Source: Chitinophagaceae bacterium
GTDB lineage: Bacteria > Bacteroidota > Bacteroidia > Chitinophagales > UBA10324
Length of the DNA stretch: 53,615 bases
Direction of reading: 5' to 3'
NCBI GenBank assembly: GCA_947474435.1
Contig: CANJII010000024.1
Coordinates: 1 to 53,615, forward strand
The notes beneath the pieces were generated by a model that saw only the letters and a program-made list of their open reading frames with translations, was not told where the DNA came from and ran no database searches. The translations under genes were made by a program, and so were the position numbers. Numbering within the stretch: position 1 is the stretch's first letter; every line of letters starts with the position of its first letter. This document shows positions 7,493 to 51,549 of the stretch, in pieces.

Positions 7493-8281
7493 ATGAAAAT
7501 ATCATACTTCATGCATTCATTAAAATCAATATTAAATATTGTTGTTTTTTGTCTTTGTTATTCAAATTGTTTCTCTCAAAAAACGGTTAACACCGATTCA
7601 CTTATTAATTCAATGGTGAATGAAAGTATAGTTAACAGCCCATCTGATGCCGGAGTTACACTAATGAAAAGTTCAAGTTTTTCCGACGCTACTAAATTTT
7701 ACAGTGCAGAGATAAATAAGAATGAAGGCAATGCAGCCGCTTATTTCAATCGTGGTATTTCGCAATGGCAAACCAATGAACCATCAAAAGCGTGTCAGGA
7801 TTGGAGCGCTGTACTTGCGCTCGGCGATACCGCAACTTTTAAATTATTGGATGGCAATTGTCATGGTGCAATGGTAATTGACGGAGATACCTTGCATAAG
7901 GAACAATACCATAAAATGTTTGCAGTAGCCAAGACCGACGCTAAATCATCTTCGAACAGTTCAAACGCAATGACTGTGGTAGAGCAAATGCCCGAATACA
8001 AAGGAGGTGATTTGGCCATGATGAAATTTCTGAACATGAATATGAGGTATCCGGAAGTTGCGCGCAAAAAAAATATTCAGGGAACTGTAATTGTAAATAT
8101 CATCATCAGTACAAAAGGAAATGTAATGTTTCCCTATGTGAAAAAGGGAATTGGCGGTGGATTCGATGAAGAAGCGTTGCGTGTTATCCGAAGCATGCCG
8201 GCCTGGAATCCGGGAAAGCAAAACGGTAAACCTGTTTTAGTTCGCTATAATATTCCGGTGAAATTTTCAGCGGGCAATTAA
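7493..8281 (+). CDS. Exported TonB C-terminal-domain protein with a TPR-like middle
   Basis: A 262-residue protein with an N-terminal export signal (residues 1-30, ending CFSQ). Residues about 60-125 look like a TPR pair (FYSAEINKNEGNAAAYFNRG, then EPSKACQDWSAVLALG). The last 95 residues form a TonB C-terminal domain: YPEVARKKNIQGTVIVNIII, then GGGFDEEALRVIRSMPAWNP, then GKPVLVRYNIPVKF. TonB domains normally pass force from ExbBD to outer-membrane receptors. This one has no Pro-rich linker and, if the signal is cleaved, no membrane anchor. It may instead be a periplasmic partner or scaffold. No exbB or exbD is nearby. Confidence 0.85.
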   Translation: MKISYFMHSLKSILNIVVFCLCYSNCFSQKTVNTDSLINSMVNESIVNSPSDAGVTLMKSSSFSDATKFYSAEINKNEGNAAAYFNRGISQWQTNEPSKACQDWSAVLALGDTATFKLLDGNCHGAMVIDGDTLHKEQYHKMFAVAKTDAKSSSNSSNAMTVVEQMPEYKGGDLAMMKFLNMNMRYPEVARKKNIQGTVIVNIIISTKGNVMFPYVKKGIGGGFDEEALRVIRSMPAWNPGKQNGKPVLVRYNIPVKFSAGN

Positions 8282-8345
8282 TAAATTATCGAAAAGTTTT
8301 GTTCTCAGAGAACTTCGTGATTCCTTGAGAAATATTTTATCGCCC
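8282..8345. repeat. Simple intergenic repeat-like string before trpS
   Basis: The string TCTCAGAGAACTTCGTGATT followed by CCTTGAGA resembles the dispersed CTC/GAGA elements seen elsewhere here, for example around 38037-38139. It is given only as a possible relic. Confidence 0.3.
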
Positions 8346-8372
8346 CATTAGTTTTTTATTTTCTTTGCCGGA

Positions 8373-9368
8373 ATGGAAACAGTTGTTAGTGGAATTAGAC
8401 CAACAGGAAATCTTCATCTCGGAAATTATTTCGGAGCGGTGAAGAATTTTTTAAAGATGCAGCATGATGCGAATTGCTATTTTTTTGTAGCTGATTATCA
8501 TTCGCTCACCACACACCCACATCCCGATAATTTAAATGCTTCAGTTAAACAGGTTCTTGCTGAAAATCTGGCTTGTGGCCTTAACCCGGAAATTTGCACC
8601 TTGTATGTTCAGAGTGATTTGCCTGAGGTTGCTGAGTTGTACTTGCTGCTTAATATGCTTGCTTACACAGGTGAGTTAGAGCGAAGCGTTACCTTCAAAG
8701 AAAAAATTCGTAAGGATCCGAATAATGTTAATGCAGGCTTGCTTACTTATCCGGTGTTAATGGCTGCTGATATTTTAATTCATAAAGCCGCAAAAGTTCC
8801 TGTTGGAAAAGATCAGGAGCAACACCTGGAATTCACTCGGAATTTTGCTGTTCGTTTTAATCATTTATATGGAGTGGAATTTTTTCCGCAACCGGTTGCG
8901 TACAATTTTGGTGTTCAGTTGGTAAAAGTCCCCGGGTTGGATGGAAGTGGAAAAATGGGCAAAAGCGAAGCTGAAGGAAATGCAGTTTTTTTAATTGATG
9001 AACATGATACAATTAAGAAAAAAGTTATGCGTGCCGTTACTGATTCAGGACCAACCGAACCCAATCAACCGAAACCTGAAGCAATTACAAATATTTTTAC
9101 ATTGATGAAACTGGTTTCATCAAATGATACGGTTCAGCATTTTGAAGATGCTTATAACAACTGCACCATTCGTTATGGTGATATGAAAAAACAACTGGCA
9201 GAGGATATGAATATTTTTATTGCACCGATTCGTGAAAAGATAAAAGAAATTTCATCTGATGAAAAATATATAAGTAAAGTGGTAAGAGAAGGAGCGGAGA
9301 AAGCGCATGAAAGCGCGCGAAAAACAGTTCAGGAGGTTAGGAATATTATTGGCATGCGATCTTTTTAA
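8373..9368 (+). CDS. trpS: Tryptophan--tRNA ligase
   Basis: A 331-residue class I aminoacyl-tRNA synthetase that charges tRNA-Trp. The HIGH-like motif is PTGNLHLGNYFGA at residues about 9-21 and the KMSKS-like motif is KMGKS. Between them are the expected DYHSLT and MAADILIHKA (tryptophan pocket) and the GKDQEQHLE segment. The length is normal for bacterial TrpRS. The sequence before the ATG ends TTTCTTTGCCGGA, close to a -7 box and only five bases from the ATG, so the mRNA may have almost no leader. The flanking genes are functionally unrelated. Confidence 0.97.
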   Translation: METVVSGIRPTGNLHLGNYFGAVKNFLKMQHDANCYFFVADYHSLTTHPHPDNLNASVKQVLAENLACGLNPEICTLYVQSDLPEVAELYLLLNMLAYTGELERSVTFKEKIRKDPNNVNAGLLTYPVLMAADILIHKAAKVPVGKDQEQHLEFTRNFAVRFNHLYGVEFFPQPVAYNFGVQLVKVPGLDGSGKMGKSEAEGNAVFLIDEHDTIKKKVMRAVTDSGPTEPNQPKPEAITNIFTLMKLVSSNDTVQHFEDAYNNCTIRYGDMKKQLAEDMNIFIAPIREKIKEISSDEKYISKVVREGAEKAHESARKTVQEVRNIIGMRSF

Positions 9369-11302: not shown

Positions 11303-13385
11303 TTTTCAATTTTATTTCATTTCAGTATTGTTGATGATTTCTATTCATCAATATTCTTTTGCGCAGATTATAAAAGACAATGAGCATCAACAAAATGTTT
11401 TGGAGCAGCAATCACAGAATACTGATGCCACAGGTGAGAGTTATGAAGATGTGGATGAACTCGCTAACACCATTTTATTGCATCCGATAAATTTAGATCG
11501 TGCCAATGAAGATGAATTAAAGCAACTGGTTGAAATTGGTGTGTTAAGCGATTTGCAGTTGCAATCATTGCTTTCATACCGCAGAACTTTCGGAACATTT
11601 ATCAGTGTATATGAATTGCAGGCCATTCCGTATTTCGATTTAACAACTATTTCTCTTATGCTTTCATACATAAAAGTGTCGGGCGATTTGTATGCTGTGA
11701 ATGCTTCAACCAAGGAGCTTTTCCTGCAGGGCGATTACATGTTTTTAATTCGTGCGCAACAAAATTTAGAAACTGCAAAAGGATTTTCAGCAATTGATAC
11801 TGCTGCAAATGATACCAATCGTTACCTCGGCAGTGCACAAAAAATATATGCACGGTTTCGTTACAACTATGGAACAAAAATCAGTTATGGAATCACTGCC
11901 AAGAAAGATGCAGGCGAACAATTATTCAAAGGCACACAACCAAATGGATTTGATTTTTATTCCACACATTTTTACATAAAGGGAAATAAATTTCTGAAAG
12001 CATTTGCCATCGGAGATTACACTTTAAACTTCGGACAGGGATTAATTATGTGGGGAGGTTTTGGTGTTGGAAAAAGTCCGTTGGTCATGACTGTGCAAAA
12101 AGGTGGCAGAACAATAAAGCCCTACACATCTTCTAACGAAATAAATTTTTTCAGAGGAGTTGCGCTCACCATAGGAACAAAACAACTTGCATTCTCGCCA
12201 TTCTTCAGTTATAAAAAACTGGATGCGAACATTGCGTTCATCGATACGGTTTCTGATTTAATAATTATTACATCATTTGGTGGCGATGGTTATCACCGCA
12301 CTTATTCCGAGCTCACACACAAGGGCGCAACGAAGCAAACAACTTTTGGCGGCAACCTGAATTTTCACAAGCAAAATTTCAGTGCAGGGGTCAGTGCAGT
12401 ACAAAATATATTAGATGTACAGGATGTGTTGCAACGCGCATATCCATACAACCAGTTCAGTTTGAACAGTGTGAACATGAGCAATGCCTCAATCAATTAC
12501 AACTGGCGATTAAACAATATGCAGTTGTTTGGCGAAGCTGCTGTATCAAATAACGGAGGCAAAGCATTGTTGCAGGGATTGCAAATGAGTTTAACGCCCA
12601 AAGCAGATTTCTCATTGGTGTATCGGAATTATAACAAAGAATATTTAGCGCCATTCGCTCAGGCATTCGGCGAAAGCAGTACACCGAATAATGAAACCGG
12701 ATTATATGCAGGACTCACCGTTCGCCCATCAAAAGTTTTAACATTCGATGCGTACTCTGATTTCTTCAACAAGAAATGGCTCGACTTTCAGGTGGATGCA
12801 CCTTCGTACGGAACCGATTTTTTTGCGCAGTTAACTTACAAACCCACGCGATACATTTCAATGTATGTGCGTTTCCGCGATAAGAGCAAGCAGGTGAATC
12901 ACGGCGGCACCGAAACACATCTTGATTATTTAATCTGGCAACGAAAACAAAATCTCCGCTTCAATTTTAATTACAAAGTCAATCAATTGATTTCATTTCA
13001 GAGCAGGGTAGAAGCGGTGCGTTTTAAAAGCGGAACTGAAGATTACTCAAAGGGAATTTTGTTTTTGCAGGATATTAATTTCAAAAAATCGGGAGTGCCG
13101 CTGGCTGTTACTTTGCGTTATTGCAATTTCGATACTGATGATTACGATACAAGAATTTATGCATTTGAAAGCGATGTACTTTATAGTTACAGCATTCCAT
13201 CTTTTCAGGGAAGAGGAATGCGGTGGTACTTGTTGTTTCGTTATACAATGAACAAGCACATTGATATCTGGGCTAGGTTGGCTCAAACATCTTATCTGAA
13301 TCAAACTGTTATCAGCAGCGGGTTGGATGAAATAAATTCAAATCATAAAACCGAATTGAAACTGGAACTGAGGTTGAGGTTTTAA
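11283..13385 (+). CDS. Helix-hairpin-helix plus outer-membrane barrel protein
   Basis: A 700-residue exported protein. The start at ATG 11283 overlaps the upstream gene by 20 bases and gives a signal peptide ending HQYSFAQ. Residues about 55-140 contain helix-hairpin-helix repeats (INLDRANEDELKQLVEIGVL, then LLSYRRTFGTFISVYELQAI), as in ComEA-like proteins. The remaining 550 residues are beta-rich with alternating aromatics and end in LELRLRF, typical of outer-membrane barrels with a C-terminal Phe. This HhH-barrel arrangement recurs in Bacteroidota without an assigned function. Overlap with the PorV-like gene suggests a joint role at the outer membrane, possibly in DNA uptake or protein secretion. 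Confidence 0.7.
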   Translation: MCLVKSSFQFYFISVLLMISIHQYSFAQIIKDNEHQQNVLEQQSQNTDATGESYEDVDELANTILLHPINLDRANEDELKQLVEIGVLSDLQLQSLLSYRRTFGTFISVYELQAIPYFDLTTISLMLSYIKVSGDLYAVNASTKELFLQGDYMFLIRAQQNLETAKGFSAIDTAANDTNRYLGSAQKIYARFRYNYGTKISYGITAKKDAGEQLFKGTQPNGFDFYSTHFYIKGNKFLKAFAIGDYTLNFGQGLIMWGGFGVGKSPLVMTVQKGGRTIKPYTSSNEINFFRGVALTIGTKQLAFSPFFSYKKLDANIAFIDTVSDLIIITSFGGDGYHRTYSELTHKGATKQTTFGGNLNFHKQNFSAGVSAVQNILDVQDVLQRAYPYNQFSLNSVNMSNASINYNWRLNNMQLFGEAAVSNNGGKALLQGLQMSLTPKADFSLVYRNYNKEYLAPFAQAFGESSTPNNETGLYAGLTVRPSKVLTFDAYSDFFNKKWLDFQVDAPSYGTDFFAQLTYKPTRYISMYVRFRDKSKQVNHGGTETHLDYLIWQRKQNLRFNFNYKVNQLISFQSRVEAVRFKSGTEDYSKGILFLQDINFKKSGVPLAVTLRYCNFDTDDYDTRIYAFESDVLYSYSIPSFQGRGMRWYLLFRYTMNKHIDIWARLAQTSYLNQTVISSGLDEINSNHKTELKLELRLRF

Positions 13386-28246: not shown

Positions 28247-28645
28247 TCACTTCAAATTTAATTGTGATATAATTTCTTTTCTGAATTCATCAGCAATGGA
28301 AACTAATTTTTCCATTTCCGTTTTATGAAATTGAAATCTACCAAGCGGATAACGAACATCAACTGCGAATGAAGTAAGTAAATCAGCTTTGTCTTTCAAT
28401 ACAATTTTTATTCTTTCCACTTTCTCATTCAACATATAAATTAGAAATTGTAGGTCATGAGTTTTTGCAAATTCAATTTCATTATAAGTAAGAAGTGCTT
28501 TCAAATATTTTTCAACTGACTGCTGACAATGAAATCCTATTATCTCTTTGTATTCAGGAACCCGTTCTAAAATAATTTTTGCAGTTCCCAAATCATGGTC
28601 GGCAAGTTCAATCCACTCCTTAATTAAATCTTCACGGCTTGTCAT
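28247..28645 (-). CDS. HEPN-domain protein (partner of the adjacent nucleotidyltransferase)
   Basis: A 132-residue all-helical protein of the PF05168-like HEPN type: WIELADHDLGTAKIILERV, then IIGFHCQQSVEKYLKALLTY, then FAKTHDLQFLIYML. The C-terminal motif region is AVDVRYPLGRFQFHKTEME. The clear Arg-x4-6-His RNase motif of toxic HEPN proteins is not obvious; the nearest is the Arg and His in this segment. HEPN proteins paired with minimal nucleotidyltransferases form toxin-antitoxin modules or nucleotide-binding two-protein systems. The gene overlaps the nucleotidyltransferase by 14 bases. The pair is inserted between nuoF and nuoG on the same strand. Confidence 0.88.
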   Translation of the reverse strand: MTSREDLIKEWIELADHDLGTAKIILERVPEYKEIIGFHCQQSVEKYLKALLTYNEIEFAKTHDLQFLIYMLNEKVERIKIVLKDKADLLTSFAVDVRYPLGRFQFHKTEMEKLVSIADEFRKEIISQLNLK

Positions 28646-28961
28646 AAAGGAGTTTAGATTTTTTTAATGCCTGACCAAGAAAAGTGAATTTGTTCTCTTT
28701 TTCTTCTTCAAAATATTTTGGTGTGCAAACCAAAATATCCATTGGATGAATCCATTTAGTTAATGATGCGCGAATGTTACCCATCAATGATAAACGAGGC
28801 ATTCCATTTTCAACTTCTTTCACTACTAACAAATCCAAATCACTATCTGTTGTTGGATTGCCAGCAGCATAAGAGCCAAAAAGAATTACTTTATCGGGTT
28901 GATACTCTGCAACAATTTTTTGCACCATTTCATTGATTGTATTTTCCGAAAGGATTTTCAT
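28632..28961 (-). CDS. Minimal nucleotidyltransferase (MNT-type)
   Basis: A 109-residue member of the polymerase-beta-like nucleotidyltransferases. The fold signature FGSYAAG followed by SDLDLLVV (residues about 27-46) gives the Gly-Ser and paired Asp metal ligands. PMDILV near residue 73 supplies the third Asp. Family members next to HEPN genes act as antitoxins that can AMPylate the partner. Here the HEPN gene overlaps its last codons. The gene starts 43 bases after the nuoF stop and would be transcribed with complex I. Confidence 0.9.
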   Translation of the reverse strand: MKILSENTINEMVQKIVAEYQPDKVILFGSYAAGNPTTDSDLDLLVVKEVENGMPRLSLMGNIRASLTKWIHPMDILVCTPKYFEEEKENKFTFLGQALKKSKLLYDKP

Positions 28962-39982: not shown

Positions 39983-42900
39983 ATGGGAAACAAAATTAAA
40001 ACTATAGCAAGGTTGTTCGCAACAGGATTGTTGTTCGTCTTGATTTCATTTTCAAATGAATCAAAAGCACAGTGCACCGCCACCATGACTTATACAAACC
40101 CGCAAGCCGGTGAATTTGTATTCACAGGATACCTTACACCCAACAGCTCGTGGATGTATTACTATTGGGATTTTGCTGATGGTAACACAGCACAAGGTTC
40201 AAGTGCAACTGTAACCCATCAGTTTTCTTTTCCAGGTATTTACAATGTGTGTGTAACAGCAGTTGATTCTACAAATGGATGTTATAATTATTACTGCCAA
40301 TACATAACTGTTAACTCAACCATTTGCGATATTACTCCGGCCTTTACTTCAATGAATATGGGTAATGGCACTGTGATGTTTACCGATGCCACAGTAGATA
40401 ACGGCGGTTCAACCATTACAGGTTGGTCATGGTCATTTGGCGATGGCGGAACATCAACACTGCAAAACCCTACGCACACTTATACTACCAATGGCACTTA
40501 CGGTGTAATGCTTACTGTATACAATTCTGCAGGATGTACAGATACCATCTATGATTATGTGGTTGTTAATAATGCTTGCTTTATCAACCCTTTTTATCAA
40601 CCAACTACAACAAGTGCTTATGTTGGCAGCCAGATTTTTTTTACCGATTTATCTCAACCGGTAATTGTTTCCTGGCTTTGGGATTTCAATGATGGAACAA
40701 CATCAACAATTGCGAACCCTAGCCATATATTTACTCAGCCAGGTGTTTATAATGTATGCCTGACGGTAACTTCAAATACAGGTTGCGTTGGGACTTATTG
40801 CCAGCAGATTTCAATAACAAATATTTGCAATCTAACACTTAATGGTTCAGTTACTAGTACATCTTGCGGAAGCTGCAATGGATCCATTGATTTAATTGCA
40901 AACAGTTTGAATAACATAACAAGTTACCAATGGAGTAATGGTGCGACAACTGAAGATATAAGTGTTTTATGTGCAGGGAATTACATGGTAACTGTTACCG
41001 ATTCGTTAGGATGTATGGCGGCTACCCAGTTTTTCATAAACAGTATTGGCGGATTAACTGGCACCATTACAATTGATACTACAAATGCTTCAAGCGGTAT
41101 TGTAGTATTAAATGGTTATGCTACAAACGGAACAGCACCATATAATTACTACTGGTACATTCCGGGTGGAAATCCATCCAATTCAAATACACAAATCACA
41201 ACTGTTCAATATCCTTATCCAAGCACCAATCTTATTTGTCTCACAGTTTCTGATGCCAATGGTTGCTACGATTCTCTTTGCACTACCTTCAGCATTGGTG
41301 GTGGTTCTGTAAACTGTTCAGGACTATTTTCGAATGTAACAGCAAGTCAAACTTCTGCTAACACTTGGAATGTTTATGCATTTCCATCCGGCGGAACAGC
41401 TCCTTACACTTATCAATGGACTTTACCCGGCGGAACTTCAACTTGCGGATACAATCAAAACATTGCTTGTGCAGTATATCCTTCTGCGGGTACTTATATT
41501 GCCTGTTGTTTAATTACTGATGCGCTTGGTTGCACAATTAATAATTGTTTCACCATGGTTGTACAGCCGTCACCATGTAATGCTAACTTCTATTTATATT
41601 CTAATTCCGATTCGGTTGATATTTATAACAATTCGCAAGCCGGTGTAAATGCAACTTACTACTGGGATTTTGGCGATGGAACAAATTCAACCAATGGAAA
41701 TTTGCAATCATTCTTCAGCCATCATTATGCTGTTGCCGGAAGTTATACCATTTGCCTATACATCAGTGATCCTGCAAATAATTGTTACGATACACTTTGT
41801 CAAACCATTACTATCTGCGCGTTAAGTGCTGATGTAACTTATACCATAAACGGAAACATTGTTTCATTGCAAGGCACCATCACAGGCAACTATACTTCAT
41901 TCGGTTGGTATTTGTCTTCCGGAATGAATACTACTTCATTAACTGTAAACGATACACTCGCCACATCGGGGTTATATTATTATACTTTCTGGGCTACTGA
42001 TAGTGCAACAGGATGTTATGACAGTTCATGGTTTCAGATTCCGGTAAATTTCATTACAAATAATTTTATCTCCGGAATTGTATTTAACGATGCCAATGGA
42101 AATGGTATTCAGGATGCAGGCGAACCCGGGCTTGGCGGCATTTATGTGAATGTAGCAGGGCAGTGGATTCAAACTGACCCCAACGGACTTTATGGTATTT
42201 ATGTAGCGGATGGTACATGGAATGTTGATGTATATGTAACTTCAACATGGACACAAACTTTCCCTGTTAGTCCGACCTCTTACACTGTTAATGTTTCCGG
42301 TGGAACCACTCTTTCAAATCTGAACTTTGGTTTACAATCCAATCAAACCACTATAACCGGTATTGTATTCAACGATGCTAACAGCAATGGTGTACAGGAT
42401 GCAAGCGAAAATGGAATCGCCAATATCTGGGTTGAAGTTGGTTGGTACTGGGCAATGACTGATGCCAATGGAGTTTATACCGTTACTGTTCCGGTTGGAA
42501 CTTACAATGTTGAATTATGGACCATACCTGCAAGCGCAACTTTAACCGTTCCTGCTTCCGGAAATTATACTGTGAATGCAACTACCATCGGACAGATTTA
42601 TGGTGGAAATGATTTCGGATTAAATTATCCTCCGGGTGTGCAGAACATGGTTATCTCTCTTTCTACCTGCACCACTGTAACTCCATGCTTCCCTGCATGG
42701 TACAATATCTCTTACTACAATGCCGGAACTGTTCCTGTGAATGCAACGGTTTCTATGAATTACGATCCGCAATTGTATTTCGATTATTCATCACCACTAT
42801 ACACAACAATTGATACTATCGCGCATATTATTACCTGGAATGTAGGCATAGTACAGCCCGGCGCATCCGGTTGGATATGGGTTGACTTCACAACAGCTTG

Positions 42901-43702
42901 TACAGTTGTGGCAGGCGATGCAGCATTTAATGCTGTGTTTGTAAATCCAATTGCAGGCGATGCAGTTCCTTCAAACAACATTGATACACTACATCAGATA
43001 GCTACTTCAAGCTGGGATCCGAATGACAAGCAGGTGTCTCCATCAGGTGTTGGTGCTCCCGGATTCATACATGCTGACCAGCGTTTAGATTATACCATCC
43101 ATTTCCAAAACACAGGTAATGCACCTGCGATGAATGTAGTGTTGATTGATTCATTGAGCAGTGAATTGGATTGGACAAGCATTAACATTCTTTCTTATAG
43201 CCACCCGATGGTGAGTGAGTTGGATACTGTTACCGGCATCATTACATTCTTCTTCAATAACATCATGTTGCCAGATAGCGGTGCTGATTACATTGGAAGC
43301 ATGGGTTTTGTGAAGTACACCATTTCACCAAAATCAACCATTGCCGACGGAGCAGTGATAAACAATTTCGCTGATATTTATTTTGATATGAACGCACCTG
43401 TTCGCACCGGAACTACGCTGAATACCATTGATTATAACTTAGGTATTACTCCGCTGTTCGGTGCTAATGAAGTTCACATTTATCCGAACCCAACAAGCGA
43501 AAGCGTTACTGTTGAACTTGCACAGCCATGCGAAACCTGCCGCATAGAAATTTCAAACACACTCGGGCAGAAAATATTTACTGAAGCACAAAATCTAACT
43601 TCTAAAAGCTATAACCTGAAAGCTTTAACAAAGGGAATTTACTTCATCAGCATCATTAGCAACAACGAAACGCTATCAGTTCAGAAACTGATTGTACAAT
43701 AG
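39983..43702 (+). CDS. Giant secreted PKD / SprB-like / SdrD-B-like protein with T9SS sorting domain
   Basis: A 1239-residue protein with signal peptide (ending NESKAQ). In order: PKD-type domains (YYYWDFADGNTAQGSS, GWSWSFGDGGTSTLQNPTHT, WLWDFNDGTTSTIANPSH), a SprB-like repeat (SCGSCNGSIDLIAN, then YQWSNGATTEDISVL), further PKD-like blocks (TYYWDFGDGTNSTNGN), two SdrD B-like repeats (GIVFNDANGNGIQDAGEPGL at about 695 and GIVFNDANSNGVQDASENGI at about 790), a DUF11-like region (LDYTIHFQNTGNAPAMNVVL at about 1035), and the sorting domain (VHIYPNPTSESVTVE to IVQ). It should be a surface adhesin or matrix protein carried by T9SS. Many Cys residues lie in pairs within the PKD blocks. Confidence 0.9.
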   Translation: MGNKIKTIARLFATGLLFVLISFSNESKAQCTATMTYTNPQAGEFVFTGYLTPNSSWMYYYWDFADGNTAQGSSATVTHQFSFPGIYNVCVTAVDSTNGCYNYYCQYITVNSTICDITPAFTSMNMGNGTVMFTDATVDNGGSTITGWSWSFGDGGTSTLQNPTHTYTTNGTYGVMLTVYNSAGCTDTIYDYVVVNNACFINPFYQPTTTSAYVGSQIFFTDLSQPVIVSWLWDFNDGTTSTIANPSHIFTQPGVYNVCLTVTSNTGCVGTYCQQISITNICNLTLNGSVTSTSCGSCNGSIDLIANSLNNITSYQWSNGATTEDISVLCAGNYMVTVTDSLGCMAATQFFINSIGGLTGTITIDTTNASSGIVVLNGYATNGTAPYNYYWYIPGGNPSNSNTQITTVQYPYPSTNLICLTVSDANGCYDSLCTTFSIGGGSVNCSGLFSNVTASQTSANTWNVYAFPSGGTAPYTYQWTLPGGTSTCGYNQNIACAVYPSAGTYIACCLITDALGCTINNCFTMVVQPSPCNANFYLYSNSDSVDIYNNSQAGVNATYYWDFGDGTNSTNGNLQSFFSHHYAVAGSYTICLYISDPANNCYDTLCQTITICALSADVTYTINGNIVSLQGTITGNYTSFGWYLSSGMNTTSLTVNDTLATSGLYYYTFWATDSATGCYDSSWFQIPVNFITNNFISGIVFNDANGNGIQDAGEPGLGGIYVNVAGQWIQTDPNGLYGIYVADGTWNVDVYVTSTWTQTFPVSPTSYTVNVSGGTTLSNLNFGLQSNQTTITGIVFNDANSNGVQDASENGIANIWVEVGWYWAMTDANGVYTVTVPVGTYNVELWTIPASATLTVPASGNYTVNATTIGQIYGGNDFGLNYPPGVQNMVISLSTCTTVTPCFPAWYNISYYNAGTVPVNATVSMNYDPQLYFDYSSPLYTTIDTIAHIITWNVGIVQPGASGWIWVDFTTACTVVAGDAAFNAVFVNPIAGDAVPSNNIDTLHQIATSSWDPNDKQVSPSGVGAPGFIHADQRLDYTIHFQNTGNAPAMNVVLIDSLSSELDWTSINILSYSHPMVSELDTVTGIITFFFNNIMLPDSGADYIGSMGFVKYTISPKSTIADGAVINNFADIYFDMNAPVRTGTTLNTIDYNLGITPLFGANEVHIYPNPTSESVTVELAQPCETCRIEISNTLGQKIFTEAQNLTSKSYNLKALTKGIYFISIISNNETLSVQKLIVQ

Positions 43703-43722: not shown

Positions 43723-43767
43723 AAGAAACCCTGCTGACTTAATTGTTGGCGGGGTTTCTTGTTTTTT
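43723..43767 (+). terminator. Terminator after the PKD gene, copy 1 of a repeated terminator
   Basis: AAGAAACCCTGC (43723-43734) pairs with GCGGGGTTTCTT (43749-43760), with one T-G wobble, and is followed by GTTTTTT. The left arm and loop CCCTGCTGACTTAATTGTT recur at 48784 in the terminator that ends the next operon. Confidence 0.85.
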
Positions 43768-43957: not shown

Positions 43958-45762
43958 ATGAATTTGAAAAATAAAACACTTCTTTTTTCTTCACTGTTAT
44001 TGCTGATTTTAAATTCGAATGTGTTTTCTCAGACTTCTGATGAGCAAAGTGGTGTAAGCACATCTTATGATCGACTTTCTATTTCAACTTTTTTTATTGA
44101 ACCATTAGATAGTATTTCAGAAAAAACTGTCAATAGGATGAAGAACCTTACTATTTCAAATAAGTTTGACAACCATAATATTGACATTTCATTATTTAAA
44201 ATTAGTTTGAATCACAGAAACGATAATAGTGAATCTGAAAATATTACCTTATTAAATAATTCTTTATCGGAAGTTTCAAAAGATGTTATTGCCAAGTGGT
44301 TTAATCGGTCAGAAAATGGTGATTTTAATATGGAGTTAATTCAGCAAAAAGGATTAAATAATGCGACTGATAATAGTATGGTAGTAGCAGGCGGATCACA
44401 ATTAGGTGACAATGTTGTAAAAGATGCAGGTGAGAAATTAATAAATAAAACTTATGCAATCATCTACGACATTAATGTAAAAAACATGAAGCAGGTTTAT
44501 GATGAACAAGATGCGAAGTCAAAGCAAACAGATCCTAATGCTGCTCCTGTCGAAAGATTGAATGAAGGATATCAGGCAACCTATACTGCTTATCTTTTAA
44601 AATTGATTTTAATGATTCAGTATCAAATACTTTTTATAATGAGTATTGGACTGATGCTTCAAACCACAATGAAGCAAAAGTTGAAAAATTTAAATCAGCT
44701 TCGTTTCCATATAAATATGTAACTCGTTATTCGTCTTCCGTTTCTTCCAGTCAGGTTAAAAAGCCAACCACTGATTTAGAAAAAGCTTACAGAAGAAGTA
44801 TGCCCCAATTACTTGATGGGATAGCAAATAAAATTAACAAAGAAGCGATCGAAAAATTAACTGGAAACAATGAGTCGTTTCAAGTAAAGGCAGGTATTTT
44901 TCAGGAAAAGCCTTTGTTAATTAAAATTGGAACGAAGGAAGGAATACATAGAGATCAACGGTTTTATGCTTATGAAAAAGTGCAAAAGAAAGACGGTACA
45001 CAGGTGAAAAGAAAGCGTGGAATAGTGAGAGTTTACAAACCGGAAAACAATAGTGGTGTTGCTTCTGGAAGTACTACGCCATCAAAATTCTACCAGGTAG
45101 GGGGTACAAAATTGTATCAGGGAATGTTTGTGGAAGAGAAAAAAGACAAAGGAATTTCATTCGGAATGGGATATGTAGCTGGTGGTTATAAACCATTGAG
45201 CGGTTTGGCTATGGCTGCCGAAATAAATCTTTCACTATTGCTTGGAATGGGAAATGGAATTCACTTTGGCGTTGTACTCACCGGACACGGAGGTTCTAAT
45301 GTTGAAGCCGGAAATATTTTCAGTGGATCCAAGCAATTAACTTCTGATACATCATTGTACAAAAAAGTTGGATCAGGTTCAACTGTGTTAGTTCTCTACC
45401 GCGATTGTTATTTCGGAACCGGTAATATTTATCTGTCGCCGTTAATTGGATATGGTTGGGTTGGAATTACAATTGACTCAAGCAGTGTTGTTAAGTATGA
45501 CAACAATTATTCGAAAGAAGCATACGATTGGAACTCGAAAGTTTTTCAGTTCGGATTGGGTATTGGGTTCAATGTTTTTCCACGGGTTTCAATGGTGTTT
45601 AAACCATCATTGTCATTTGTTCCTGCATATAAAGATGGAAATAAAATATTGTTGAATCAAAAAAAGACTTCATCATTTGCTGATTCCGGTTTCGGGTTCG
45701 ATAAAATAGATGCCGGAGCCATGCGACCATCCATGTATATGGGATTGCGAATCAGAATTTAA
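43958..45762 (+). CDS. Exported envelope protein with C-terminal barrel; reading frame joined by a -1 shift at 44602
   Basis: Two overlapping frames encode one protein. Frame 1 (ATG 43958) has a signal peptide (ending SNVFSQ) and runs to YQATYTAYLLK, then becomes unlike protein and stops at 44722. Stepping back one base at T_TTA_AAA (44596-44602) gives IDFNDSVSNTFYNEYW and continues to 45762, for about 601 residues. An ATG at 44800 lies well inside the conserved-looking frame and is not a likely start. Residues about 330-400 (KPLLIKIGTKEGIHRDQRFY, then GIVRVYKP, then GTKLYQGMFVEE) resemble the small barrel of FlgT-like proteins. The C-terminal 200 residues are an outer-membrane-type barrel. 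First of five genes. Confidence 0.7.
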
Positions 45763-45794
45763 TTAAATCACTAACCAACCAAATAAATAAATCA

Positions 45795-46319
45795 ATGAAA
45801 ACAATGGGACTAAAAATTAATTTATTGCTGATTCTGTTAACCGGAATTTATTCAAGTGCTTTTTCGCAGGCACAAAAAAAAGCTGATAACGACACTGAAA
45901 ACTGGCGCTACGAAATTGAATGCGTGGGCACAGGCAACGAAGGAACTTACTTAATTAAAGTATGGAGCTATTCTAAAAAACCATTGGTGGCTATTGAGCA
46001 AGCGAAAAAAAATGCAATACACGGAATTATTTTCCAGGGTTTTCAGGGCGGAAAGAACGGTTGCAATGGTCAAAAACCTTTAACAAGCAATCCATCACTT
46101 GAACAAGAGAAAGCAGATTTCTTCAAAGACTTTTTTGCTGATGGTGGCAAGTACATGAAGTTTGTAAATGTTACAAACGATGGTTCCATTGCGCCTGAAG
46201 ACAGATTGAAAGTTGGTAAGGAATATAAAATAGGAGTGGTGGTTTCAATATCAAAAGATGCTTTACGCAAAGACCTTGAAGCTGCTGGTGTTATTAAAGG
46301 ATTGAGTTCAGGATTTTAA
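45795..46319 (+). CDS. Exported small protein, paralogue A of a tandem pair
   Basis: A 174-residue protein with signal peptide (ending SSAFSQ). The core ECVGTGNEGTYLIKVWSYSK, then PLVAIEQAKKNAIHGIIFQG resembles the QA-rich helix of FlgT/LPP20-type envelope domains. It is followed by KADFFKDFFADGGKYMKFV and YKIGVVVSISKDALRKDLE. The next gene has the same order: ECVSTEMDGSETVK, NQAKKNAVNDILFKG, EDYFNAFFADKGEYEKYI, YGLIIQVLRPALKKK. The two are clear tandem duplicates of a family I cannot name. It lies 32 bases after the frameshifted barrel gene. Probably periplasmic. Confidence 0.75.
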   Translation: MKTMGLKINLLLILLTGIYSSAFSQAQKKADNDTENWRYEIECVGTGNEGTYLIKVWSYSKKPLVAIEQAKKNAIHGIIFQGFQGGKNGCNGQKPLTSNPSLEQEKADFFKDFFADGGKYMKFVNVTNDGSIAPEDRLKVGKEYKIGVVVSISKDALRKDLEAAGVIKGLSSGF

Positions 46320-46335
46320 AAAAAATAAATTTCAC

Positions 46336-46851
46336 ATGAAAAAAAATCAAATCATAGATCAATCAATTCTGTTTTTTACAGCAGCATTGTTTTTTTCTTT
46401 TTCAGTTTCAGCACAAAAACAACAAAAGAAAACAGCCGGAAATTATACCTATCCAACAGAGTGTGTGAGCACTGAAATGGATGGCTCTGAAACTGTAAAA
46501 GCATACGGAACCGGAAAGGGCAGAATAGATGCGACTAATCAGGCGAAAAAAAATGCGGTGAACGATATTTTGTTCAAAGGAATTCTGGATGGCAAAGGAG
46601 GTTGCTCAGTAAAGCCGCTTTTGAATGAAGCCAATGTGCGGGAAAAGCATGAAGATTATTTCAATGCTTTTTTTGCCGATAAAGGTGAATATGAAAAATA
46701 CATTGTTCTGAATGATGCATCTGCCGAGCAACGATATTTTAAGGATGTAAAATATTCGGATAAGGAAGTAACCTATGGTTTAATCATTCAGGTATTACGG
46801 CCTGCGTTAAAGAAGAAAATGATTGAAGATAAAATTTTAACCCCTCAATAA
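46336..46851 (+). CDS. Exported small protein, paralogue B of a tandem pair
   Basis: A 171-residue protein with signal peptide (ending SFSVSAQ). It aligns by eye with the preceding 174-residue protein along its length, including the paired Cys (ECVST early and GGCSVKPLL in the middle, as ECVGT and GCNGQKPLT in A), which could form a disulphide. The two proteins have clearly diverged, so the duplication is old and both copies are probably kept for different roles. It starts 16 bases after A and ends five bases before the next gene. Confidence 0.75.
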   Translation: MKKNQIIDQSILFFTAALFFSFSVSAQKQQKKTAGNYTYPTECVSTEMDGSETVKAYGTGKGRIDATNQAKKNAVNDILFKGILDGKGGCSVKPLLNEANVREKHEDYFNAFFADKGEYEKYIVLNDASAEQRYFKDVKYSDKEVTYGLIIQVLRPALKKKMIEDKILTPQ

Positions 46852-46856
46852 AAAAG

Positions 46857-47807
46857 ATGAAAAAAATAACTACTTGTTTTATTATACTGATTGCTTTTTC
46901 AATTTCAGTAATCGGTCAGGCAAAAAAACCAACATTAATGGTATTACCAAGTGATGTTTGGTGCAATCAAAATGGTTACATGAGCGAATTTGATAATCAG
47001 GGAACCAAACTGAAATTCCCTAATTATAAAATGGCGTTCCAGTCAAATTCAGATTTATTATTGGTGATTGGAAAAATAAATTCTTTGATGGCTGAGCGTG
47101 GCTTCCCGTTGAAGAATGCAGAGTCAGTATTAAAAAGTTTAGAAGGCGAATCTGCTGAAGATGCCATGTTGCAAAGCAAAAGCGGAAGCGATGTAAGCGA
47201 AACTGCAATTGACAAATTAAAAAAGACTGCAAAAGCCGATATCATCATTCAATTGACCTGGACAATAAATACTGTCGGTCCTAAAAAATCAATCACTTTT
47301 AATTTACAAGGTTTGGATTCTTATACTGACAAGCAAATTGCTGGTGAACAAGGCACAGGCGCACCTTCTTTTTCAGCTGAACTTCCTGTGTTGTTGGAAG
47401 AAGCTGTGCTCTCGCATTTGGATAATTTCAATACACAATTGCAAGCGCACTTTGATGATATGTTTGCCAATGGTCGTGAGATAACTGTACGGGTAAAAAA
47501 TTTTGGTGATGACTGGGGCGGCGATTTGGAAAAAGAATACGATGGCAAAGAACTTGGAACCATCATTGAAGATTGGATGCGCGATAATACCGTAGCACAC
47601 AGATTCAGTACCACTGATGCAACTGAAAACATGATGTTGTTTGAGCAGGTTCGCATTCCACTTTACGATGCCAATGGAAATGCAATGGATGCACGCGGAT
47701 TTCTGAAACCATTGCAGAAGTACTTAGCGGCACCACCATATTCCATTCCTTGTAAATTAATGACGAAGGGTTTAGGGCAATCATCATTAGTTCTCGGAGG
47801 TAAATAA
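46857..47807 (+). CDS. Exported protein, DUF6175/CsgG-like, function unknown
   Basis: A 316-residue protein with signal peptide (ending FSISVIGQ). It opens with KPTLMVLPSDVWCNQNGYM, then has SDLLLVIGKINSLMAERGFP, LKNAESVLKSLEGESAEDAM and AKADIIIQLTWTINTVGPKK. This is the layout of CsgG/TolB-like periplasmic domains, where a helix with an instance of LMAERGF precedes strands describing an aDIIIql core. I associate the N-terminus with the Bacteroidota family DUF6175, from memory only. The C-terminal half (MMLFEQVRIPLYDANGNAMD, then RGFLKPLQKYL) is unlike anything I recognise. It lies five bases after paralogue B. Confidence 0.65.
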   Translation: MKKITTCFIILIAFSISVIGQAKKPTLMVLPSDVWCNQNGYMSEFDNQGTKLKFPNYKMAFQSNSDLLLVIGKINSLMAERGFPLKNAESVLKSLEGESAEDAMLQSKSGSDVSETAIDKLKKTAKADIIIQLTWTINTVGPKKSITFNLQGLDSYTDKQIAGEQGTGAPSFSAELPVLLEEAVLSHLDNFNTQLQAHFDDMFANGREITVRVKNFGDDWGGDLEKEYDGKELGTIIEDWMRDNTVAHRFSTTDATENMMLFEQVRIPLYDANGNAMDARGFLKPLQKYLAAPPYSIPCKLMTKGLGQSSLVLGGK

Positions 47808-47818
47808 AAAACACAACT

Positions 47819-48757
47819 ATGAAAAAAATAAAAACACCATTCATTTTAATTACGCTTTTACTTTTAAGTATCAGTGAAAAAAATATGGCTCAAAACTCTT
47901 CCGGTGATTTGGCTGCCATCAACATCAAAACTTTTCTGCCCGATCAGCCCGAAAATATACCGGCTGAAGCAATTGATCTTTTAACAAATAAGTTGAATCA
48001 GATTACATCACAGAGTTCGTTAGGTGGCAGTCAAATGAGTCAGCGTTTTATTATCACTGCGCATACTAATATTCTTTCTAAAGATATTATTGCCGGACCG
48101 CCAACCATGCAGGCAATAAGCATTGAAGTTTCATTTTACATTGGTGATGGTATTGATGGAAAAAAATTCTCCAATAAATCGATTACGCTGAAAGGAGTCG
48201 GAACAAACGAGCTCAAAGCATTTATTGATGCAATGAAAAACAGCAAACCAAATGATCCGGCCATTCAGGCATTTGTAACTGATGGAAAAAATAAAATTGT
48301 GGATTATTATAATTCACAGTGCGAGTTCATAATTAATCAGGCATTGACTTTCGAAAACTTAGGAAAGTATGAAGAAGCCATTTACCTGCTTACCTCTATT
48401 CCTGAAGTATGTAAAGCATGTTACGAAGAGGCGATGCATACTGTAGTTCCGATTTATAGAATTTACATGGAAAAGCAATGTGTTGTTTTACTGGCTGAGG
48501 CTCGCAACATCTGGAACTCTACACAGGATGCTAACGGCGCTGCTGCTGCTGCAAAAATTTTATCTAAAATAAATCCGGAAGCCATGTGCTATCCTGATGC
48601 TTCAAAATTAAGCGAGGAAATTGGCGCAAAATTCAAACTGATTTATGAAGACAATTTAACCATGGAAAAATTAAAGCTGAATGCCTACAAAGCAATAGGA
48701 GTTGCGACCGGCGAAAATCAACCCAACACGGTTTACAATGTGAAAGGCTGGTGGTAA
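47819..48757 (+). CDS. Exported CsgG-related-looking protein with TPR-like C-terminus, function unknown
   Basis: A 312-residue protein with signal peptide (ending EKNMAQ). Residues about 25-150: AEAIDLLTNKLNQITSQSSL, SQRFIITAHTNILSKDIIAG, ISIEVSFYIGDGIDGKKFSN and SITLKGVGTNELKAFIDAM. They form an alpha/beta domain that looks like the N-domain of CsgG/LpoB-type proteins. Residues about 180-300 look like TPR helices (ALTFENLGKYEEAIYLLTSI) with Cys pairs (VCKACYEE). The last residues NVKGWW are aromatic. It is the last gene of the cluster, 11 bases after the previous one, and ends at the repeated terminator. Confidence 0.65.
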   Translation: MKKIKTPFILITLLLLSISEKNMAQNSSGDLAAINIKTFLPDQPENIPAEAIDLLTNKLNQITSQSSLGGSQMSQRFIITAHTNILSKDIIAGPPTMQAISIEVSFYIGDGIDGKKFSNKSITLKGVGTNELKAFIDAMKNSKPNDPAIQAFVTDGKNKIVDYYNSQCEFIINQALTFENLGKYEEAIYLLTSIPEVCKACYEEAMHTVVPIYRIYMEKQCVVLLAEARNIWNSTQDANGAAAAAKILSKINPEAMCYPDASKLSEEIGAKFKLIYEDNLTMEKLKLNAYKAIGVATGENQPNTVYNVKGWW

Positions 48758-48780: not shown

Positions 48781-48822
48781 AAACCCTGCTGACTTAATTG
48801 TTTGCGGGGTTTTATTTTTTTT
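48781..48822 (+). terminator. Terminator after the five-gene cluster, copy 2 of a repeated terminator
   Basis: AAACCCTGC (48781-48789) pairs with GCGGGGTTT (48804-48812), followed by TATTTTTTTT. Left arm and loop match copy 1 at 43728-43746 almost base for base. Confidence 0.85.
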
Positions 48823-49302: not shown

Positions 49303-51549
49303 CTAATGCACAACCACAAATTTTTTCAACACTGTTACACCAATCGATGAAGTCAGTTTAATAAAATATATTCCTTCAGAAAAATCAGAAACATTAATGG
49401 CGGCAGGACTTTGAACTTTAAACTCAGAACTTTGAACTAATCTCCCCAAAACATCAGTAATCTGAATTTCACTAATTAGCCATTGTCCATTATCAATTAT
49501 CAATTGCCCGTTCGCGGGGTTCGGATAGATTTCGAAATTAGTATCTCCAACAATAGGTGAAACCGCATCAATACTTAAAGTTGCTAAAGCCGTGCAGTTA
49601 TTAATATCGCTCACAGTTACAGTATAAGTTCCGTTGGTAGCGTTGGTAATAAATTCAGTAGTTGCACCTGTGCTCCAGAGATAATGATAGGAGGGAGTGC
49701 CGCCAATAACACTACAGAAAACAGTATCAGCAGTAGTAGTAAGGGAAGCAATCACCTGATTGGGTGCTGTAATAACAACCGTATCACCTGCCGTGCAGCC
49801 ACCGGCATCGCTCACTGTTACACTATATGTTCCGGCGGTTAAGTTGTTCAGGTCTTCTGTGGTTGCGCCGTTGCTCCATTCATAATTGTTTGGCGAGAGG
49901 CCGTTTGAAACTGTTACATTAATAAAGCCGTTTGTATCGTCGTGGCATTTAATATTTATTAAGGAAGAATCACTTAGTTGTAAATCATTTATTTGAATAA
50001 TAGAAAATGATATTGGAGAATTTAAAACATTACATCCGATACTATCAGTAACTGTTAGAGAATATGTTCCTGCGGATAAATTGTTTAGGTCTTGAGTGGT
50101 TGCGCCGTTGCTCCACAAATAACTATAAGGTGAGGTACCTCCATTTATATCAATATCAATATTACCAGTGCCATTAAGTGAACAATGGATGGAATCAGTT
50201 TGGGAAACGATAGAAAAAGTAAGGGGTGGAATAGAAGAAATTGTGACCGTACCTGAATTGTTGCAGCCAGAACTATCTGTTACTTGATAAGAATAACTTC
50301 CAGGAGTTAAATTAAATAAGTCTTCAACTGTAGCGCCATTACTCCATATATAAGAAAACGGAGGGATGCCACTATTAGTATCTACGATTAAATTAATACT
50401 TCCATTATTGATTGAACATGAATCAACATTTTCATATTCAAAGGAAGTACTTAGTTGACAGAAATTTTGAAAATAACTATCAATGAAATTGGGTAATCCA
50501 AGGCGTGAAGCATATCCGGGAAATAAGGTCAAAGCTGAATCTACATAATTACAAGCAGCACCGGTTAGATTTGGATTATTGATTACGCCAAGGGAATTTC
50601 GTAGAAACCTCGCACAATAAATTTTACCATCAGGTGCGAGTTGCAAAGAACCTTTGTAAACGCTATTGTTTTGAAGAATTGTGTAAGGAAGATTTTGAAA
50701 GTTCGGAATGGTCAAATCGAATTGCTGAATGCCACCTCCTAAATTAAAAGAAACATAAAGCTTAGAATTATCTGGTGAAAATGAAATTCCATATGAATAA
50801 CCTGGGCATGGAATAGCAACATAATTGCTTAGAACTCCGGTGAAAGCATTAAAATCAAAAAGTTCAATTGGGTCAAATGGCACATGCCATCTCGCTGCCG
50901 CTATTTTTTGACCATCCGGTGAACTTTTTAAACAACCAATAGTATTTTGAGTAGTACTTATTGGCAAACCAATAAAGGTTATTATAGGAACACCGACACC
51001 TGAGGAAGTAATCGGGTATGCATAAAAAGCGTTAGAAGGATAGGAATGAACAATAACCCAAAAGTCTGTTCCGTTTGGGTTACGGACTGCGGTTATTTTT
51101 TCACAAGCGGGTGTTACAAGTTGATTATTAATACTTACTAGACCTCCCATTCCTCCATTCAAAGTCATGTCAACTACTGAATAACAAATACCGTGAGATT
51201 GCGCTTGATAATCAGCAGTGAATATATAGTATTTATGGCTATCATTAGGAAAAGGAATGATAATCGCAGACTGCGTTGTGGTATAACTTCCAAATAAACC
51301 AGTGCCCATTATAGCGCCACTAGTATTATAAACTGTAACTCCGTCTGTCGAGAATAAAAGATTACCAGATGAATCACAAATTGAAGCACAGCCTTCACCT
51401 GTATTGATAGGACTAAAAATAGCAACCGGACTTCCTGAATTAAAATCAATGCCCGCATTCCAGCCAAAATGCCAAATATTCCTTTCTCCCTGCCCCCAGC
51501 AAAAAACTGGCGACACAAATAACAAAACAACAAAAAACAGTTTGCGCAA
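49303..51549 (-). CDS. Secreted SprB-repeat protein with T9SS sorting domain
   Basis: A 748-residue protein. The start codon is TTG at 51549 (no ATG is suited), and the signal peptide ends VFCWGQ. Residues about 20-370 are a WD/propeller-like part (ERNIWHFGWNAGIDFNSG, then GNLLFSTDGVTVYNTSGAIM, then FSPDNSKLYVSF), often seen with SprB proteins. Then come four SprB repeats in a row, each with YxWSNGATTEDLxNL and TxSxxVTDxxGC. The C-terminal sorting domain begins EIYPNPANGQ and ends VLKKFVVVH. It contains QLIIDNGQWLISEIQI and SSEFKVQS, which are products of dispersed repeats. It is likely surface exposed or an adhesin. Confidence 0.85.
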   Translation of the reverse strand: MRKLFFVVLLFVSPVFCWGQGERNIWHFGWNAGIDFNSGSPVAIFSPINTGEGCASICDSSGNLLFSTDGVTVYNTSGAIMGTGLFGSYTTTQSAIIIPFPNDSHKYYIFTADYQAQSHGICYSVVDMTLNGGMGGLVSINNQLVTPACEKITAVRNPNGTDFWVIVHSYPSNAFYAYPITSSGVGVPIITFIGLPISTTQNTIGCLKSSPDGQKIAAARWHVPFDPIELFDFNAFTGVLSNYVAIPCPGYSYGISFSPDNSKLYVSFNLGGGIQQFDLTIPNFQNLPYTILQNNSVYKGSLQLAPDGKIYCARFLRNSLGVINNPNLTGAACNYVDSALTLFPGYASRLGLPNFIDSYFQNFCQLSTSFEYENVDSCSINNGSINLIVDTNSGIPPFSYIWSNGATVEDLFNLTPGSYSYQVTDSSGCNNSGTVTISSIPPLTFSIVSQTDSIHCSLNGTGNIDIDINGGTSPYSYLWSNGATTQDLNNLSAGTYSLTVTDSIGCNVLNSPISFSIIQINDLQLSDSSLINIKCHDDTNGFINVTVSNGLSPNNYEWSNGATTEDLNNLTAGTYSVTVSDAGGCTAGDTVVITAPNQVIASLTTTADTVFCSVIGGTPSYHYLWSTGATTEFITNATNGTYTVTVSDINNCTALATLSIDAVSPIVGDTNFEIYPNPANGQLIIDNGQWLISEIQITDVLGRLVQSSEFKVQSPAAINVSDFSEGIYFIKLTSSIGVTVLKKFVVVH

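Follow-up and report, generated by a model that had tools for sequence, protein, structure and literature searches.

What, if anything, do five adjacent genes for exported proteins build together? The question arises from positions 43958-48757 of contig CANJII010000024.1, from a Chitinophagaceae bacterium, whose full 53,615 nucleotides we call the window. An original prediction had described these genes (g1 to g5) as head to tail, with gaps of 5-32 bases and signal peptides on all five products, and had proposed a multi-protein outer-membrane assembly. The arrangement was as described. All five lie on the plus strand, the list of open reading frames (ORFs) gives intergenic gaps of 32, 16, 5 and 11 bases, and every N-terminus looks, by eye, like a signal peptide. 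The ORFs of g2 (174 amino acids, aa), g3 (171 aa), g4 (316 aa) and g5 (312 aa) are uninterrupted. Throughout, L and three digits denote a fetched locus, and G and three digits a genome.

We conclude that the cluster is a real conserved envelope module on known folds, for which the searches made returned no described function. To the more specific reading, that its products form a conserved cell-envelope assembly of CsgG/FlgT-type subunits, periplasmic and outer-membrane-associated, we give about an even chance.

Conservation of the cluster as a unit

A scan of genome contigs with g4 recovered 114 relatives, of which 80 were used for locus counts. With iterated profiles, g4, g5 and g2 were each found in 80 of 80 loci (g2 once as a g2-g4 fusion) and g1 in 79, the sole miss being L018, whose stretch begins at a contig edge. 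The order g1-g2(-g3)-g4-g5 was kept in 76 of the 80, with g1 after g5 in three (L077, L080 and L091). Every locus was on a single strand (80/80), and the median gap across the 73 plainly ordered loci was 14 bases.

Presence and absence followed the same pattern in 395 genomes of the window's class (we take the three class searches to cover the same 395, because the same handles recur). We found g4 in 34 genomes, g5 in 35 and g2 in 33. Among the 34 genomes with g4, 33 had g5 and 33 had g2; among the 361 without it, none had g2 and two had g5, namely G297, where a contig edge cuts the locus, and G291, which is partial. The g4 and g5 genes lay within 524 bases on the same contig in 33 of 33 genomes. 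Association with g4 gave Fisher P values of 2e-47 for g2 and 1e-44 for g5, relatedness being ignored. These searches scored at most five or nine first-look candidates per genome and misses are possible: G056 was scored as having no g5, yet its locus L011 matches g5 (3e-41).

The four families also diverge together, with pairwise distances correlating at r 0.72-0.86 over 76 loci (L054, L090 and L039 (by hand) and L018 (without g1) were omitted). In L090, g2 and g4 share a single frame of 473 aa from which the g4 signal peptide is absent, and in four genomes of another genus the g2 and g4 matches fall in equal-length frames of 472-476 aa. Such fusion suggests that the g2 and g4 proteins touch. 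We did not class the g1-g2 join in L039 as a fusion, since it still contains the signal peptide of g2.

The four families (g1; g2/g3; g4; g5) travel together, in near-fixed order, across the phylum Bacteroidota, and both order and co-occurrence exceed chance. Conserved co-occurrence in this order was what the original prediction had pointed to as support.

The g4 tree mostly tracks host order, with nine changes against a shuffled mean of 28.8 and the Sphingobacteriales as one group. It has exceptions, such as Arachidicoccus within Flavobacteriales, and the pattern suggests an old module with patchy retention and occasional transfer. Two loci labelled 'Chlorobiota' (L035) and 'Cellvibrionales' (L042) are probably misbinned, since they nest among Bacteroidota rows of this tree. 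Named strains of Flavobacterium, Pedobacter, Mucilaginibacter and Aquimarina carry the cluster. A 9-kb UNVERIFIED 'Bacteriophage sp.' record (L008, MT836698.1) holds g1, two g2-type genes, g4 and g5; we took it for a bacterial contig.

Patchy presence (34/395) and an exact 22-nt direct repeat on either side of the cluster would also fit an accessory mobile or defence cassette, which we consider very improbable. Defence models gave a single weak hit (E 0.009), plasmid matches were none, one unannotated 'phage' record was found, an IMG/VR pattern scan returned no relative, and the agreement of the g4 tree with host order points the other way.

Predicted folds of g4 and g1

The g4 protein is a full-length member of DUF6175 (PF19672; E 4e-123, 410.6 bits against a cut-off of 23, profile positions 1-293 of 293). 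DUF6175 is named only as a family of unknown function, and the operon context is newly added here; the PMC full-text literature that was searched yielded no mention of DUF6175 or PF19672. It is the most conserved of the four families, with 65% mean column identity and an invariant Trp-Cys at 35-36 (alignment of 79 of the 80 rows plus the window).

An AlphaFold model of g4, with a mean predicted local distance difference test score (pLDDT) of 83, places a CsgG/PelC/TolB-N type domain at residues 23-206. The top Foldseek entries, at E values from 1.9e-4 to 9.8e-4, were GNA1162 (4hrv, E 1.9e-4), 8z5n, CsgG, XCC0632 (2iqi, E 6.8e-4) and FlgT. In VIA-align, where the best Z without a clear match is typically 7 to 8, the g4 model aligned with CsgG (6lqh, Z 10.6, 140 aligned, root-mean-square deviation (rmsd) 6.3; 4q79, Z 10.3, 132 aligned, rmsd 3.7), with PelC (5t11, Z 9.9, 106 aligned, rmsd 2.7) and with FlgT (Z 8.8). 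By sequence, g4 had no match to the CsgG family PF03783 in Pfam. No long inserted hairpins of the CsgG membrane type were seen in the secondary-structure string of the model, which is a monomer, and a lipoprotein signal motif was present in 3 of 80 rows, the window copy not among them. Near a contig end, L012 also encodes a second, short DUF6175-like protein (12095-12577, G000:C8; 160 aa) with a lipoprotein-like start, which covers profile positions 1-108 only.

The original prediction had taken g1 for a barrel protein of about 601 residues. The 601-codon span is in fact two ORFs, with a one-base frameshift near 44595 relative to the same-genus copy L013, to which the window is about 90% identical in DNA across the cluster. 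We modelled g1 in the L013 frame (580 aa; mean pLDDT 79, predicted template modelling score 0.74). The model is alpha/beta to about residue 375, followed by eight strands of at least nine residues with loops of low confidence, so the barrel occupies only the C-terminal third. Foldseek ranked FlgT (3w1e) second, at E 2.7e-4, after OmpX. VIA-align matched the model to FlgT 3w1e (Z 9.1, 232 aligned, rmsd 10.7), to TolB (Z 8.5) and to the 352-residue chain of 8z5n, an 'LPHT ring' entry (Z 8.8, 222 aligned, rmsd 10.6); we take this chain to be FlgT, the search output giving no chain name. The predicted fold, for the L013 copy only, has the TolB-N-like middle domain of FlgT followed by the FlgT C-terminal domain, and residues 376-580 aligned with OmpA/OprF-type barrels at Z up to 14.5.

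A CsgG/PelC-type domain is thus predicted in g4, and the FlgT middle and C-terminal domains in the conserved part of g1. The models bear out the expectation of a CsgG-like or FlgT-like fold, and move the FlgT-like part from the two later alpha/beta proteins to g1, the supposed barrel gene. The barrel part of the g1 profile was matched in just 6 of the 79 loci with g1 (L013, L026, L027, L037, L050 and L090), and g1 has a long N-terminal extension instead in L044, L057, L068, L069, L072 and L089. The eight-stranded barrel is an add-on of g1 and no family trait. FlgT_N (PF16548) was not among the matches listed (25 of 39 Pfam families) for the 72 g1 rows, which are 72 of 80 frames, six over 620 aa plus L074 and L090 being left out. 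The N-terminal extension, found in Flavobacteriaceae, is 350-550 residues long, and that of L044 has three UVR-type motifs.

The companion proteins and a candidate assembly

As the original prediction had proposed, g2 and g3 are tandem paralogues (34% identity, E 7e-23) with a matching Cys pair. Both Cys were present in 51 of 70 aligned members, neither in 19 and a single one in none (68 of 106 locus rows plus the two window rows); co-varying perfectly, the pair behaves as a disulfide would. A second, separate g2-type gene occurs in 27 of 80 loci. Lipobox-like motifs were found in 15/70 g2/g3 members, compared with 4/72 for g1, 3/80 for g4 and 1/55 for g5, and nine of the 12 lipobox-positive g2/g3 members printed were second copies. 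HTH_CodY matches to g2/g3 (27/70, best E 1.5e-4; residues 145-173 of the window g2) were dismissed as implausible for exported proteins.

A resemblance of g2/g3 to LPP20 had also been suggested, and it was not significant. LPP20 (PF02169) was not among the matches listed (25 of 38 Pfam families) for the 70 members. Nine loci, all Bacteroidales by title, do have LPP20-like genes no more than 4 kb downstream of g4 (on the opposite strand in L050); these form a 430-aa family in all nine and a 192-aa family in seven. At E <= 1, LPP20 matched 6/7 and 2/9 members of the smaller and larger family (best E 6e-4 and 0.0023), with printed scores of 18.2 and 18.8 under the cut-off of 25.9. Comparison of g2 with these neighbours in hhalign gave 30% over 20 columns and 3%, leaving an LPP20 identity unsupported.

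The original prediction had grouped g5 with g4 as alpha/beta proteins. This description fits g4; the C-terminal half of g5 looks helical, judging from sequence matches in its family. In Pfam at E <= 1, ARM_TT21 matched 20 of 55 g5 members (best 9e-12) and TPR_19 matched 7 of 55 (best 2e-8), and the window g5 matched nothing. Five Cys columns are occupied in more than half of the rows (54 of 81 rows plus the window).

We propose that g4 subunits would oligomerise at the periplasmic face of the outer membrane, by analogy with CsgG, PelC and PqiC. The g2 and g3 proteins would bind g4 and, where lipidated, tether it to the outer membrane. The g1 protein may cap or brace the assembly, and some lineages would pin it in the membrane through the eight-stranded barrel. 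By its helical half, g5 might dock as the tetratricopeptide repeats (TPRs) of PelB do in the PelC ring. An eight-stranded barrel is too narrow for protein export. Because of this, and because the modelled g1 and g4 show no large barrel and no obvious CsgG-type hairpins, we think a scaffold or adaptor, surrounding whatever passes through the outer membrane, more likely than the pore itself. The assembly would probably be a ring or scaffold. The multi-protein outer-membrane assembly of the original prediction is favoured by co-conservation and by the CsgG and FlgT folds, whereas g1 is broken in this genome assembly, and a ring, cargo or function is something that we infer.

Several points weigh against this reading. 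The structural matches come from predicted monomers, and from g1 and g4 only of the five proteins. The g1-FlgT match lies above the background Z of 7-8, not far above it, and its rmsd over two domains is high. LptE and TolB share the predicted g4 fold, and ribosome hibernation factors reach Z 7.5-8.1, which leaves CsgG and PelC a margin of about 2 Z units over unrelated rows. Profile searches of the PDB with four families gave nothing credible (best E 0.98, 0.59, 0.027 and 0.33). Pfam and NCBIfam name none of the families except g4, as DUF6175, and part of g5, through TPR-like hits; in NCBIfam nothing for the cluster proteins was over cut-off. Besides the g2 values above, hhalign gave 26% for g1 against g4 and 13% for g5 against g4, and no profile method ties the cluster families to known ones. 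Finally, neither of the two full carriers in the genus has an undamaged g1.

A dedicated curli- or Pel-like export channel, with g4 as the pore or as a ring beneath it and a peptide or polysaccharide as the secreted product, seems unlikely to us. CsgG and PelC, both export proteins, are among the closest predicted folds of g4, its residues 23-206 aligning with CsgG at Z 10.6 and the PelC fold at Z 9.9. As an excerpt of PMC12141448 describes it, PelC is a dodecameric ring mounted on the PelB barrel with the PelB TPRs inside, and TPR-like repeats occur in part of the g5 family. Unlike CsgG, however, g4 has no family match, no clear lipobox and, in the model, no obvious membrane hairpins, and it has an extra C-terminal domain of about 110 residues. 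The module also departs from PelC/PelB: neither g1 nor g4 has a large barrel, lipobox-like motifs are rare in g4 (3/80) and the gene content is different. The barrel of g1 has eight strands and is missing from most relatives, and no large barrel or obvious substrate gene was recognised in the 25 commonest flanking families, judged by the first residues of one example each.

Other close neighbours of g4 could point to lipid traffic. An outer-membrane receiving station for lipids or lipoproteins, PqiC- or LptE-like and with its inner-membrane partner encoded elsewhere, would fit the presence of XCC0632 (2iqi, a PqiC relative) and LptE rows among the structural neighbours of g4. An excerpt of PMC10897342 presents PqiC as an octamer, a toroid forming a ring at the inner face of the outer membrane. 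The neisserial lipoprotein GNA1162 and XCC0632/PqiC, both among the top Foldseek entries, are smaller proteins than g4, and GNA1162 and PqiC are lipoproteins. Moreover, none of the 25 commonest flanking families, transporters included, holds a fixed place across the phylum, no search having been aimed at MCE proteins. A permease family about 3.7 kb upstream in five loci (siderophore-type by eye) looks local to a few genera, and an ABC ATPase family in 18 loci is at scattered positions. We judge such a station decidedly improbable.

The flagellar H-ring offers a third comparison. It is made of FlgT, FlgO and FlgP, and an excerpt of PMC7990780 has it aiding the flagellum's passage through the outer membrane and anchoring the flagellum. 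The module resembles the Vibrio H-ring in the predicted FlgT middle and C-terminal fold of g1, in consisting of exported proteins, some with lipobox-like motifs in relatives, and in its presumed place under the outer membrane. It differs in that g1 may carry a barrel and in that an LPP20/FlgP identity of g2/g3 is not supported. The window's own genome also lacked a match to the one flagellar family tested, Flg_bb_rod (4 of 14 controls over cut-off), to CsgG (PF03783; again 4 of 14) and, at E <= 1, to LPP20 and FlgT_N, for which the controls were weak (none of 14 over cut-off for FlgT_N and none for LPP20). That the module is a flagellum-independent H-ring counterpart in Bacteroidota, a CsgG/FlgT-fold ring bracing the outer membrane around another machine, is in our view quite unlikely.

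What distinguishes the module is that four families, three of them without a Pfam or NCBIfam name, are held as a unit phylum-wide with the predicted folds of curli export, Pel export and the H-ring. If a ring forms, such folds would build assemblies at the outer membrane even where bacteria have neither flagella nor curli. That would bear on the origin of H-ring parts and supply genes that could be checked against envelope particles not yet assigned. Since the operon is short and present in named strains, it is amenable to deletion.

The locus in its genus and its flanks

Within the genus, g4 was found in one of five genomes besides that of the window. The 3' end of the upstream gene, a predicted type IX secretion cargo, is present in all six, and the terminator region after it aligns except in G001. 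In G004 this gene is followed by a frameshifted, truncated g1 (L114, G004:C32, frames 8194-8811 and 8802-9170, minus strand) and then by unrelated genes; the genome is without g4, and its fetched stretch holds no other cluster gene. G001, G002 and G003 had no g4 genome-wide and no cluster match in the fetched stretches, that of G002 reaching only about 1 kb past the gene. In G005, g1 (the L013 copy) has an in-frame stop within the signal peptide, so that the g1 lesion differs in each of the three known holders.

The lesions of g1 in the two full carriers suggest that the locus may be in decay in this genus. In the strong form of this explanation, g1 is a true pseudogene and the cluster is a remnant in the genus that no longer builds a complex. 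The window frameshift, the G005 stop, the G004 truncation and the three genomes without g4 all fit it. All of these are draft assemblies, however, and single-base lesions are possibly errors. Moreover, g2 to g5 are open in both the window and L013, and their ratios of nonsynonymous to synonymous substitution rates (dN/dS) were low (g2 0.039, g3 0.108, g4 0.041, g5 0.007). We regard the remnant explanation as doubtful but open to argument. Past the frameshift g1 also has a low ratio (0.086), so any loss would be recent. A milder form is that g1 may be dying in the genus while g2 to g5 are under purifying selection, subject to the same possible errors in drafts.

The cluster had been described as closed on both sides by near-identical terminators. 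An exact 22-nt direct repeat does bracket it (Table 1). Allowing up to two mismatches, the genome has no third copy, and the 68-nt surroundings of the two copies are 79% alike. The terminator scan called the upstream copy but not the downstream one, and its total of 2 against a shuffle mean of 3.5 was no excess. L013 has a near copy downstream; at the upstream position the sequence aligns, with no hit to the exact core. The repeat pair may mark an old insertion or provide a route for loss by recombination.

Table 1. Positions of the cluster genes, their predicted parts and the bracketing repeat in the window.
Feature	Position	Strand	Basis
g1: FlgT-like protein, frameshifted near 44595, ending in an 8-strand barrel	43958..45762	+	ORFs 43958-44722 and 44800-45762
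g1, part predicted to match FlgT middle and C-terminal domains	44039..45153	+	mapped from L013 residues 7-378; Foldseek and VIA-align
g1, predicted C-terminal 8-strand OmpX/OmpA/OprF-like barrel, optional in family	45145..45759	+	model; 4rlc Z 14.5, 132 aligned, rmsd 2.9
g2: exported, 174 aa, co-varying Cys pair C43 and C90	45795..46319	+	
g3: g2 paralogue; second copy in relatives sometimes with lipobox-like motif	46336..46851	+	
g4: DUF6175 (PF19672), most conserved of the cluster families	46857..47807	+	Pfam E 4e-123
g4 residues 23-206: predicted CsgG/PelC/FlgT-M/TolB-N type domain	46923..47474	+	model, structure comparison
g4 residues 207-316: putative second domain	47475..47804	+	
g5: C-terminal half TPR/ARM-like in part of family; conserved Cys	47819..48757	+	profile matches
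22-nt direct repeat, upstream copy, within terminator-like hairpin 43723-43760	43726..43747	+	
22-nt direct repeat, downstream copy, 5055 bases further	48781..48802	+	

On either side of the cluster lies a gene with Por_Secre_tail domains by Pfam (39983-43702 and 49303-51549), each a predicted type IX secretion cargo. Elsewhere in the window, between NADH dehydrogenase genes, a small gene pair on the minus strand (28247-28961) may represent a HEPN/nucleotidyltransferase toxin-antitoxin pair, which it resembles.

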